From Candidatus Desantisbacteria bacterium CG1_02_49_89 (GTDB lineage Bacteria > Desantisbacteria > UBA1551), in assembly GCA_001871075.1 (NCBI GenBank), contig MNUP01000132.1:1-8719 (forward strand): a stretch of DNA of 8,719 nucleotides, given 5' to 3'. The translations under genes were made by a program, and so were the position numbers. How positions within the stretch are numbered: position 1 is the stretch's first letter; the number at the start of each line of letters is the position of its first letter. The notes under the pieces are model-generated. The model was not told the DNA's origin and made no database searches. It worked only from the letters and a program-made list of their open reading frames with translations. Positions 1,852 to 8,667 of the stretch are shown one piece after another.

Positions 1852-2229
1852 GTGGCGAAGAGAGAAATACATTTTAGTTTTGAAAATTTAGAGGTCTGGC
1901 AAAAGGCAATTACTTTTGCTGATACTGTTATTGATATAATCGATAAACTTGAGACAGACAGGAAACATTATAGGCTGATCGAACAGCTGGAATCGTCAGT
2001 TACTTCAATAGCAATGAATATCGCAGAGGGAAAGGGCAGGTTTTCAAAGAAAGAATTTGCAAAGTTTCTTTATATTGCCAGAGGTTCCCTGTTTGAATCC
2101 GTTGCTTTAATGGAGATTTTTAAAAGAAGAAGGTGGGTTGCCGAAGACCAGTATGATAAATTTTATAATGACGGAAATATAATAGGGAAAATGCTGACAG
2201 GTTTGATAAACTCAATAAAAAGCTCTTAG
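1852..2229 (+). CDS. Four-helix-bundle protein, 23S rRNA intervening-sequence (IVP) family
   Basis: This 125-residue protein has the hallmarks of the S23/IVP family: an N-terminal FENLEVWQKA motif (10-19), the central SIAMNIAEGKGR block (52-63), a KKEFAKFL segment and ARGSLFES (76-83). The length is typical. The family folds as a four-helix bundle. It is encoded in intervening sequences of some 23S rRNA genes and is related to Avd, the accessory protein of diversity-generating retroelements; no reverse transcriptase or variable repeat is present here. Its biochemical role is unsettled, and nucleic-acid binding is a reasonable guess. The start is GTG, preceded by AGAGGG four bases upstream; nearby ATGs are out of frame. 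The stop region AGCTCTTAGTC matches a repeat motif AGCTCATAGTC at 10 of 11 bases, so the repeat may supply this stop too. The gene is markedly AT-richer than its neighbours and has no evident tie to glycan synthesis, so it looks inserted. Confidence 0.88.
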   Translation: MAKREIHFSFENLEVWQKAITFADTVIDIIDKLETDRKHYRLIEQLESSVTSIAMNIAEGKGRFSKKEFAKFLYIARGSLFESVALMEIFKRRRWVAEDQYDKFYNDGNIIGKMLTGLINSIKSS

Positions 2230-4341: not shown

Positions 4342-6246
4342 ATGTGCGGGTTTTGCGGGATCCTTGAATTCGGCTCGGGAAGCATAATAACCGAGGAGCT
4401 TTTGAAAAAAATGTGCGCGGTGCTCCAGCACCGCGGGCCTGATGACCAGGGCATATACATAAAAAGGAAAGACGGGGTGAGGCTGGGCCTGGGTCACAGG
4501 AGGCTGGCCGTCATAGACCTCAATACCGGGCGGCAGCCCATTTCCAACGAGGATGATACCATCTGGGTTGCCTACAACGGCGAGATATACAATTTCATGG
4601 AGCTGAGGGAAGGGCTTGAGAAAAAAGGGCACAGGTTCAAGACCCGGACCGACACGGAAGTGATAGTGCACCTTTACGAGGAGCACGGGACCGGCTTCGT
4701 CAGGTTCCTGCGGGGTATGTTCGGCATAGCGCTGTGGGACGAGAAGGAAGAACGCCTGGTCCTTGTAAGGGACAGGATCGGCAAGAAGCCCGTCTGCTAC
4801 GCGCTGGCCCCGGGCAGGCTTATTTTCGCGTCCGAGATAAAATCGATACTTGAGGTCCCCGGGATAAGCAGGGAGGTGAACCTTACCGCGATGCACCATT
4901 TCCTGACCTACCAGTACGTGCCGTCCCCGATCTCGATCTTCAGGGGCATTTCCAAGCTGCCAGCCGCGCACATGCTTGTCTGGGAGAAAGGGAGCGCGAA
5001 GGTCGAGAAATACTGGGAGCTTGATTACGGCGCTAAAATAAAGATAAGCCCTGCCGAAGCGCAGGAAAGGATAATCGGCGAGTTCAGGGAATCAACGAAG
5101 ATGAGGCTTGTCAGCGACGTGCCGCTCGGTGCTTTCCTCAGCGGCGGCATAGATTCAAGCGCAGTGGTGGCGATGATGTCGGAGCTCATGCCGAAGCCTG
5201 TCAAGACTTTTTCAATAGGTTTTGAAGAGCAGGATTTCTCCGAGTTGAAATACGCCAGGATGGTCTCAAAAATGTACGGGACAGACCACAAGGAGCTCAT
5301 AGTGAAGTCCCCGAATGTCCCGGAGCTGCTCCCGAAGCTGGTCTGGTATTACAACGAGCCCTACGCGGACTCCAGCGCCATCCCGACTTACTGCGTTTCG
5401 AAGATGACCAGGGAGCACGTTACGGTCGCGCTCAACGGGGACGGGGGGGACGAGAATTTCGCCGGGTATCCCAGGTACCAGCAGAGGAAGCTTGTCGATA
5501 CAGTTGCAGGGCTGTATAATATACTGCCCGGGTTTAAAAAGAACTGGATCAGCAGGATAGCGGGATCGCAGGCGTCCCGCAGCGCGTTCTGGAGGAAGGT
5601 AAAGTGGGCCGCGCAGGCTTCAGGCATGAGCCCGGAAAGAAGGTACGCCAGGTTCATGACGGTCTTCCCCAACGATTACAAGGAAAAGCTGTATTCCGAC
5701 ACGCTGAAAAAAGAGCTTGCGGGAATGGATTCAATAGACCTGCTTGCGGATGCCTGTTCAAGGGTGAAGGCAGATAATATTGTCGAAAGGATCATAGGCA
5801 GCGACATAATAACGTATTTGCCTGACTGCCTCTGCGTCAAGATGGACATAGCCGCTTCCGCGAATTCGCTTGAAACAAGGGCGCCCCTTCTTGACCACAG
5901 GTTCATGGAGTTCACGGCAAGCCTGCCCCCGGGCTTCAAGCTTAACGGCTTTACCACGAAATACGTTTTCAAGAAGGCGCTTGAGAAATACCTGCCTAAA
6001 GAGGTCCTTTACAGGAAGAAAATGGGGTTCGGCGTGCCCATAACGCACTGGTTCAAAAAAGACCTTAAGGATTACGCGCGCGGCATACTGCTTGGGGAAA
6101 GCGCGAAGCGCAGGGGCTATTTCAGGACGGAATACGTGAAACAGCTGCTGGACGAGCACGCCTCCGGGACCGCTGACCATACGACCAGGATCTGGGCGCT
6201 CCTGAACCTTGAGCTGTGGCACCAGGTTTTTATAGATGCGAAATAA
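4342..6246 (+). CDS. asnB: Glutamine-hydrolysing asparagine synthase-type amidotransferase
   Basis: This 634-residue, two-domain enzyme has the usual family length. The N-terminal Ntn glutaminase domain starts MCGFCGI, with Cys2 as nucleophile after Met removal; R54 (GHRRLAVID), N79/E81 (YNGEIYN) and D104 (RTDTEV) match known glutamine-binding residues. The C-terminal synthetase domain carries the ATP-pyrophosphatase loop SGGIDSS (267-273). Ammonia from glutamine would be channelled to an adenylated carboxylate. In polysaccharide clusters such proteins may amidate a sugar acid rather than make asparagine; the context favours that but does not prove it. Exosortase-associated amidotransferases of similar length also belong here, but no exosortase is in view. 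ATG 4342 is chosen because Cys must follow Met. An in-frame ATG at 4312 with its own strong Shine-Dalgarno would add an eleven-residue leader before Cys (MGELRNSGGYM). The gene lies 76 bases after GT4. Confidence 0.93.
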   Translation: MCGFCGILEFGSGSIITEELLKKMCAVLQHRGPDDQGIYIKRKDGVRLGLGHRRLAVIDLNTGRQPISNEDDTIWVAYNGEIYNFMELREGLEKKGHRFKTRTDTEVIVHLYEEHGTGFVRFLRGMFGIALWDEKEERLVLVRDRIGKKPVCYALAPGRLIFASEIKSILEVPGISREVNLTAMHHFLTYQYVPSPISIFRGISKLPAAHMLVWEKGSAKVEKYWELDYGAKIKISPAEAQERIIGEFRESTKMRLVSDVPLGAFLSGGIDSSAVVAMMSELMPKPVKTFSIGFEEQDFSELKYARMVSKMYGTDHKELIVKSPNVPELLPKLVWYYNEPYADSSAIPTYCVSKMTREHVTVALNGDGGDENFAGYPRYQQRKLVDTVAGLYNILPGFKKNWISRIAGSQASRSAFWRKVKWAAQASGMSPERRYARFMTVFPNDYKEKLYSDTLKKELAGMDSIDLLADACSRVKADNIVERIIGSDIITYLPDCLCVKMDIAASANSLETRAPLLDHRFMEFTASLPPGFKLNGFTTKYVFKKALEKYLPKEVLYRKKMGFGVPITHWFKKDLKDYARGILLGESAKRRGYFRTEYVKQLLDEHASGTADHTTRIWALLNLELWHQVFIDAK

Positions 6247-6250
6247 ATAT

Positions 6251-6344
6251 AACCACGAATTACTCGAATTACACGAAATAAGCATGAGAACAAGGCAGGA
6301 CCTTTCAAGTTTTTAATTTCGTGAAATTAGATTAATTCGTGGTT
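6251..6344. repeat. AACCACGAATT palindromic repeat, unit 1
   Basis: This is an inverted repeat with 30-nt arms (6251-6280 and 6315-6344) and a 34-nt spacer. The outer 12 pairs are perfect (AACCACGAATTA with TAATTCGTGGTT), and 26 of 30 positions pair overall. Each arm is built of three 9-nt periods (ACGAATTAC-like). It begins four bases after the asnB stop. Confidence 0.9.
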
Positions 6345-6368
6345 AAAGTACTATTAAAAAACTAACGC

Positions 6369-6444
6369 AACCACGAATTTCACGAATTACTCGAATTAGG
6401 CAATGGAGAAGATTTACTTCGTGAAATTAGATTAATTCGTGGTT
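6369..6444. repeat. AACCACGAATT palindromic repeat, unit 2 (short spacer)
   Basis: The arms are 6369-6398 and 6415-6444, with 23 of 30 positions pairing and a 16-nt spacer. The right-arm core at 6418-6446 is identical over 29 bases to 6318-6346 of unit 1, exactly 100 bp away. The spacer is shorter than in units 1 and 3. The trailing GGTTAAGGTG may act as the ribosome-binding region of the next gene. Confidence 0.85.
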
Positions 6445-6459
6445 AAGGTGTATAAAATA

Positions 6460-6873
6460 ATGCAACGACGACTTTTTCAGCTTACGCGAATTGCTAAAAA
6501 CAAGAACATAGTATATAAAGAGCTGAGCTATAAAGTGATAGGCGCAGCTATGGAAGTTCATATAAATTTGGGTCCGGGTTTTCTTGAGTCTGTTTATGAT
6601 GAAGCCTTCGGCATTGAATTAAAAAGGATCAATCTGAGATTTGAATATCAAAAGGACCTGAGGATATTTTATAAAGGGGAAAAATTAGCAAAAGAGTTCA
6701 GGGTTGATTATATGATAGAGGATAAAATCCTTGTAGAAAATAAGGCTGTAAAAGTAATAACGGAAATCGAGGAAGCGCAAATGCACAATTATTTAAAAGC
6801 TACAGGTTTAAAATTGGGCATAATTATAAACTATGGTTCGCCTTCGTTGGAATATAAAAGAATCGTAAGGTAG
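6460..6873 (+). CDS. GxxExxY protein, PD-(D/E)XK superfamily
   Basis: This 137-residue protein carries the family signature G40-F-L-E43-S-V-Y46 inside VIGAAMEVHINLGPGFLESVYDEA. It also has a PD-(D/E)XK-like core: D83 in FRVDYMIED, then E93-N-K95 in ILVENKAV. It ends with the typical IIINYGSPSLEYKRIV. The family (GxxExxY/PDDEXK_3) has a nuclease-like fold and no established function that I know of. The start is uncertain. ATG 6460 follows AAGGTG by nine bases; GTG 6439 lies inside the palindromic repeat and is rejected. Family members often begin close to the YKELSYKVIGAA segment (here residue 19), so the first 17 or so residues may be an extension read from degenerate repeat sequence. The gene is AT-rich, palindrome-flanked and unrelated to glycan synthesis, so it looks inserted. 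Confidence 0.85.
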   Translation: MQRRLFQLTRIAKNKNIVYKELSYKVIGAAMEVHINLGPGFLESVYDEAFGIELKRINLRFEYQKDLRIFYKGEKLAKEFRVDYMIEDKILVENKAVKVITEIEEAQMHNYLKATGLKLGIIINYGSPSLEYKRIVR

Positions 6874-6885
6874 AAATTCGTGGTT
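6874..6885. repeat. Isolated half arm directly after the GxxExxY stop
   Basis: AAATTCGTGGTT follows the stop codon without a gap and is the exact reverse complement of 6369-6380. It has no left arm of its own nearby, so it either closes the bracket around the gene or is a remnant of a fourth unit. Confidence 0.7.
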
Positions 6886-6896
6886 TCTTAACAGGC

Positions 6897-6991
6897 AACT
6901 ACGAATCAATCGAATTGCACTAATTAAGTATAAGAACGAGGTAAGCTTTTTTGAGCTTTTAAAATTTGTGAAATTCGTGAAATTCGTGGTT
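6897..6991. repeat. AACCACGAATT palindromic repeat, unit 3
   Basis: The arms are 6897-6926 and 6962-6991, with 22 of 30 positions pairing and a 35-nt spacer. The spacer resembles that of unit 1 (AGTATAAGAACGAGG versus AGCATGAGAACAAGG at their starts, both ending in T-rich sequence), so the whole 94-95-nt element is conserved, not only its arms. A small stem AAGCT/AGCTT around a T-rich loop lies within it (6943-6958). The unit ends 11 bases before the deacetylase ATG and contributes to the TTAAGGT upstream of it. Confidence 0.85.
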
Positions 6992-7002
6992 AAGGTCTTA
7001 AA

Positions 7003-8606: not shown

Positions 8607-8613
8607 TAATTTT

Positions 8614-8667
8614 GACACTGATTTCCACTGATCTTTTCTGTGTAAACCAGTGCGTAAATTCAGTGAC
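8614..8667. repeat. CACTGATTT-type inverted repeat
   Basis: A left arm of two roughly 10-nt units (CACTGATTTC, CACTGATC; 8616-8633) faces an inverted right arm (GTGTAAACCAGTGCGTAAAT followed by TCAGTG; 8640-8665). The outer CACTGA/TCAGTG pairs perfectly and the inner units pair imperfectly. It begins eight bases after the methyltransferase 2 stop. It is a fourth repeat family with no sequence relation to the other three. The remaining 52 bases to the window end are AT-rich and show no gene. Confidence 0.7.

Follow-up and report, generated by a model that had tools for sequence, protein, structure and literature searches.

What relation does a small nuclease-like gene have to the long palindromes that surround it? 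The question is raised by positions 6251 to 6991 of an 8,719-nucleotide stretch of Candidatus Desantisbacteria bacterium CG1_02_49_89 DNA (the window, by which we mean the whole stretch that was analyzed), where a gene of the GxxExxY family lies among palindromic units. A sequence-only reading of this DNA had suggested that the encoded protein recognizes or processes the hairpins. The best explanation is that the locus holds one copy of a selfish DNA element that is roughly 0.5 kb long and widespread, and the pattern found across bacteria points to an undescribed kind of such elements.

Anatomy of the window element

Palindromic unit 1 (6250 to 6345) is composed of a left arm, AACCACGAATTACTCGAATTACACGAA, with three units at 9-nt spacing, and an inverted right arm; the arms are 30 nt each, are 90% complementary, and have 36 nt in between. 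Unit 2 (6369 to 6444) contains AACCACGAATTTCACGAATTACTCGAATT and an imperfect inverted arm, with 77% complementarity and 16 nt in between, and unit 3 (6897 to 6991), the outer arm of which ends in ...GAAATTCGTGGTT, brackets the gene downstream. These had been taken for three copies of a 94-nt palindrome. The three units do belong to one family, but they differ in length: about 95 nt for units 1 and 3 and only 76 nt for unit 2. As had been noticed from the letters, the right halves of units 1 and 2 have 29 identical bases in common, TTCGTGAAATTAGATTAATTCGTGGTTAA, which occur at 6318-6346 and 6418-6446 and so are offset by exactly 100 bp, and a half arm, GAAATTCGTGGTT, on the reverse strand (6873 to 6885) starts on the final G of the gene's TAG stop codon (6871-6873). 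The palindromic units of the window are beyond chance. RNA-fold z-scores against shuffles were -8.0, -3.2, and -3.0 for units 1, 2, and 3, respectively, and -5.9 for the whole element (6240-7000), and pattern searches counted the arm pattern in its own genome far above the reversed control.

The gene between the units (6460 to 6873, forward strand) encodes a protein of the PD-(D/E)XK nuclease fold with E-D-ExK-QxxxY residues, and its neighbors are genes for an asparagine-synthase-type amidotransferase and a polysaccharide deacetylase. Profile searches upheld the family assignment that the earlier reading had made: the protein matched TIGR04256 at 137.9 bits (cut-off, 35) over positions 1-116 of 116, with the domain at 6520 to 6867, and PF13366 (PDDEXK_3) at 126.5 bits, the latter being the sole significant Pfam match. 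The open frame reaches upstream to GTG 6439, and the start is likely ATG 6460; with this start, the D83 and K95 that had been singled out for mutation are indeed the catalytic D and K. E23, D63, E73, K75, Q87, and Y91 (domain numbering) were kept in 127 to 130 of 130 aligned sequences, and the catalytic four (E23, D63, E73, and K75), kept in 128 to 130, are also present in the window protein. The protein retains all PD-(D/E)XK catalytic residues together with the RecB/Cas4-type QxxxY motif. dN/dS ranged from 0.05 to 0.43 in close pairs with measurable dS, indicating that the gene is under purifying selection. Furthermore, about half of the GxxExxY members weakly matched Cas4 profiles. An AlphaFold2 model of the protein, made with three sequences, reached a pLDDT of 38 and was set aside as too poor.

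Arm architecture and its inheritance with the protein

The genome of the window carries five GxxExxY genes, each bracketed by inverted short-period repeats, and the bracket sequences differ among the five: AACCACGGAGACACAGAGGCACAGAG, AACCACGAATTACTCGAATT (the window gene), AACCACGGATGCACACGGAT, ACACAGATTT, and GATTACATTGATTA. One layout with five sequences indicates that the architecture, but not the sequence, is conserved. We then surveyed 386 genomes spread over the bacteria, 75 of which carry a GxxExxY gene at an E value of 1e-20 or lower, and analyzed the flanks of a clean set of 130 usable genes from about 75 genomes. An inverted arm pairing score of at least 15 was reached by 93 of the 130 genes, compared with approximately 5% of mismatched flanks and 0.3% of shuffles; about a quarter of the clean set was without a detectable arm pair. 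The mean pairing score was 20.2 for a gene's own flanks. Flanks taken from different genes averaged 9.9, dinucleotide shuffles 9.5, and other windows from within the loci 9.7.

Read from the outside inwards, the arms follow a common scheme, with TTAACC as the outer foot and then about three RCNRAK units spaced 9 nt (8-10 nt) apart. Three units were found in 138 of 234 arrays, and CC preceded the units in 83 to 94% of arrays, usually together with TTAA. Oriented RCNRAK triples occurred in half of the flanks on either side of the gene (50% upstream, 50% downstream). The wrong strand gave 8 to 12%, other parts of these loci 2%, and shuffles 0%. It is worth noting that the unit was defined on the first 29 loci and that the 102 later loci, which were held out, gave RCNRAK triples at 48% on each side. 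The arm period of GxxExxY genes is 9. The expectation that GxxExxY genes in many genomes would be flanked by ACGAATTAC-period palindromes was borne out as to the bracketing, which is far above chance in many bacteria and more widespread than had been guessed, but not as to the repeat, which is not ACGAATTAC itself: the arm letters vary with the protein lineage inside the fixed scheme instead of being a constant ACGAATTAC sequence.

The letters of the units follow the lineage of the protein, not that of the host. A deltaproteobacterial homologue (L067; 67% identity) has the same AACCACGAATTACACGAATT (ACGAATT) arms on both sides. Over all pairs, motif similarity rose from 0.36 at 30 to 35% protein identity to 0.87 above 70%, and motif and protein similarity were correlated (Mantel r = 0.42, p = 0.001), with r = 0.28 for pairs below 50% identity. 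At equal protein identity, paralogues within one genome were as alike in motif as genes from different genomes. On the protein tree, 7 changes were counted at motif position 6, where shuffles gave 33, and 54 for the whole motif, where they gave 76. Mutual information picked out several protein columns that vary with the motif letters; an assignment of contacts to single residues was dropped, as motif position 6 had switched independently only about three times.

Several further features were observed around the arrays. In the window itself, a solo palindrome of the RCNRAK type, CACTGATTTCCACTGATC...CCAGTG...TTCAGTG, lies without a gene at 8612-8660, downstream of the last methyltransferase gene. 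At positions 1-250 of the deltaproteobacterial locus L067, the left arm is expanded to six tandem copies of approximately 32 nt, GGTAACCACGAATTACACGAATTAAACGAA. A c-di-GMP-I riboswitch is located just upstream of another GxxExxY element in the genome of the window (L001, 1216-1304). The same genome (G000) holds 20 copies of a sequence of approximately 45 bp, TTTGCTTCGCAACATTCTTTGTGGGCTACGTCGATAAACGACGAAT (L265-L284; for example, L271 near 1500), which mostly interrupts RCNRAT-type arrays, irrespective of their letters, at the point where a RAT(T/C) unit ends. One copy lies at L004, within the left arm of the GxxExxY element there. By the insertion points of the 20 copies, it looks as if a small element targeted RCNRAT-type arrays.

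Solo arrays and turnover of the element

Sites of AACC followed by three units numbered 1309 in the 386 genomes, compared with about 15 for the reversed control; 1172 sites were in the 75 gene-bearing genomes, and 41 were counted in the genome of the window, some of them being the genes' own arms. At least two array sites were present in 44 of the 75 gene-bearing genomes versus 13 of the 311 others, an odds ratio of about 32 with kinship ignored and the genes' own arms counted. Thus, of the idea that solo palindromes occur only where the gene does, a strong enrichment remained, but not exclusiveness. Weak or broken traces of the gene were recovered from 6 of these 13 array-bearing genomes: clear ones in G295, where the GxxExxY gene is split by a stop, and G206, where gene fragments are left; weaker fragments in G209 and G149; and marginal matches only in G120 and G227. 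Nothing convincing was found in the rest of the 13, including G009 (L217-L220) and G272 (L221-L224), both of which contain many RCNRAK arrays. Hairpins without a gene were observed directly, as was a gene with an internal deletion whose two arms are intact; intact gene, decayed gene, and solo hairpin form a series.

In the genus of G334, gain and loss could be followed at the murC-ftsQ site, where the element is present in some of 59 species and missing in most. In the closest pair of occupied and empty alleles, the flanks were 92% identical, and there was no clean junction but recombination at a short repeat common to the two gene ends. Neither a target-site duplication nor an exact element boundary was definable at this site, where the empty alleles differ in other ways too. 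The genus contained 30 further copies in four other neighborhoods, 21 of them in one; so few neighborhoods for 30 copies suggest that moves are rare. Inheritance in this genus is mostly vertical, with few moves. Among the murC-ftsQ intergenic stretches of this genus (L180-L199), those without the gene often hold other short-period hairpins (GTATTTACGTATTCATGAATAC, GTACAAAGTACAATG, or arrays of heptamers), by which several repeat families seem to share this gap as a hot spot.

Mechanism, alternatives, and relation to known systems

A parallel arrangement was observed in the window at 1744-2300. A four-helix-bundle gene matching TIGR02436 and PF05635 (23S_rRNA_IVP; 1852 to 2229, forward strand) is placed there outside rRNA, between a left arm of GCTCATAG-type short-period array (1744 to 1815) and a right arm of inverted CTATGAGC array (2241 to 2300). 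The genome holds ten four-helix-bundle genes, most with 7- to 8-nt arrays of their own. At 37 TIGR02436 loci, own-flank pairing was 20.0 versus 9.1 for mismatched flanks; the period was 7 in 40 of 54 arms, and RCNRAK arrays occurred at 1 of the 37 loci. TIGR02436 genes therefore have the same layout as the GxxExxY elements, with 7-nt units. In Coxiella, the 23S IVS carries tandem GACAGAT heptamers before an S23p ORF and a 28-bp stem (PMC4990558), which connects the four-helix elements to a described kind.

The GxxExxY locus is probably a widespread selfish element in which a gene for a RecB/Cas4-like nuclease lies between inverted arms of TTAACC and about three 9-nt-spaced RCNRAK units, and these arms are recognized by its own nuclease. 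The nuclease would bind the iterated units on each side, probably one unit per monomer or domain, and its cutting or trimming of DNA at the arms would lead to the element being copied or retained; copying may be done by host repair after the cut. Solo hairpins would then be non-autonomous derivatives. Within a genus, the element is passed on mostly by vertical descent and moves or is lost only occasionally, in which it behaves like REP/RAYT and not like an active insertion sequence. Less easily reconciled with the selfish-element reading are the undefined ends at the murC-ftsQ site, the rarity of moves, the genomes with many arrays and no trace of the gene, the lack of a clear match between solo arrays and the gene motif of their own genome, and the quarter or so of genes that have no detectable arm pair. 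Recognition at the DNA level is favored because the arms are iteron-like and are spelled with the nuclease lineage, the active site is intact, and the arm mismatches have no sense-strand excess of G.U. In a broader and more tentative form, which we consider possible but somewhat short of an even chance, the elements are a new class in which Cas4/RecB-like nucleases read the 9-nt units of inverted three-unit arms by a lineage-specific base code, four-helix proteins independently read 7-nt units, and the two together are the source of much of the otherwise unexplained short-period intergenic palindromes in bacterial genomes.

The main rival is an RNA-stem model like that of the rRNA IVS, in which base pairing between the arms of the transcript forms a long stem and loops out the gene, host RNase III excises the element and leaves it near-harmless in operons, and the protein binds or cuts RNA. 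We consider it unlikely, even though the anatomy is that of the 23S rRNA IVS with its stem, S23p ORF, and tandem heptamers (PMC4990558). The window element, which is predicted to fold strongly as RNA, also fits it, as does the position of the upstream neighbor, which was on the same strand in 103 of 117 cases versus 119 of 162 for other gene pairs. Arm mismatches, however, comprised 121 sense G.U and 109 A.C (p = 0.47), and 45 and 40, respectively, at the four-helix loci; this lack of a sense-strand G.U excess argues against selection on an RNA stem. No rRNA family match was detected in the window or in 20 related loci, the neighbors of which are protein-coding, and one unit is reused many times in both arms, whereas pairing alone needs no such reuse. 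Moreover, active sites of the RecB/Cas4 type act on DNA in characterized relatives.

That unit letters and period track protein family and lineage makes it improbable that the arrays are another mobile or regulatory repeat family, such as host-factor sites or MITEs of an unrelated transposase, with the GxxExxY genes as inserted or captured passengers; a passenger would not yield such tracking, and at most loci the gene has inverted arms on either side. A passenger gene would accord with the several genomes that have many arrays and no gene, with the other small repeat that inserts into arrays in the genome of the window, and with solo arrays not clearly matching the motif of the gene in their genome, the likeness being 0.66 for a gene's own genome and 0.57 for others (p = 0.13). 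Still more improbable, and indeed hardly to be expected, is a host-beneficial or defense gene, restriction-like or Cas4-like, the hairpins of which merely serve as terminators or mRNA stabilizers: weak matches to Cas4 and PDDEXK defense models speak for it, whereas the GxxExxY gene was not found among 50,697 phage records and was rare on plasmids (only 8 with a match), its presence at conserved housekeeping sites is patchy, sequence inspection revealed no terminator T-run on either side of the arms, and gene-less hairpins are abundant. Among viral contigs, no GxxExxY relatives were found with one query and one distant relative with another.

Bacterial genomes commonly contain short-period intergenic palindromes, such as CACAGAGACACAGAG and GCAGATTACGCAGATT, for which we found no explanation in the literature searched; nor was any description of the association of GxxExxY with arrays found there, bioRxiv and most subscription journals lying outside the search. 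With the period set by the protein family and the sequence by the lineage, such palindromes become a testable system of protein-DNA recognition, and the uncharacterized GxxExxY and 23S-IVP families gain a likely role. The selfish-element reading also suggests a third route, beside RAYT and transposases, by which palindromes fill genomes. If it is confirmed, repeat letters and protein sequences together would be a natural data set from which the reading of DNA by a compact nuclease could be decoded.

Compared with known systems, the GxxExxY element resembles the 23S rRNA IVS with S23p (PF05635/TIGR02436) in having an ORF between inverted repeats of short tandem units, but its protein has another fold, its period is 9 instead of 7, and its sites lie between protein-coding genes; the ORF at 6460-6873 is not an S23p four-helix ORF, while the separate gene at 1852-2229 is. 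With Cas4/RecB-type nucleases, GxxExxY shares the E, D, ExK, and QxxxY motifs (D63, E73, K75, Q87, and Y91), and one pipeline reported it in place of a cas4 gene (PMC8934634). Unlike Cas4, it is without the conserved Fe-S cysteines, no conserved Cys column being present in the alignment of 130 sequences, and inverted arrays take the place of the CRISPR context, no CRISPR genes being among the window neighbors. As with MITEs and their autonomous partners, there is a series from intact over decayed gene to solo inverted repeat; unlike them, the element encodes neither a DDE nor a Y1 transposase, and target-site duplications were not seen. Presence and absence alternate at an orthologous site, as expected of a mobile element (murC-ftsQ, 59 congeners).

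In logic, the element is like REP/RAYT, in which a single nuclease-type gene likewise lies between two inverted palindromic repeats, solo palindromes occur elsewhere, and the repeat sequence is lineage-specific (PMC2817692). GxxExxY elements, too, have inverted flanking repeats and solo repeats dispersed in the genome. RAYTs, however, are Y1 tyrosine transposases with GTAG/GTGG-headed REPs (PMC2817692), whereas here the enzyme is a PD-(D/E)XK RecB/Cas4-like nuclease and an arm consists of three 9-nt-spaced units; a Y1 (HUH, IS200/IS605-like) domain is absent, Pfam giving PDDEXK_3 only, and the palindrome foot is TTAACC without a GTAG/GTGG head. The REP/RAYT analogy drawn by the sequence-only reading thus holds in logic and not as membership, and the GxxExxY element is best read as one that would work like REP/RAYT from outside that family.
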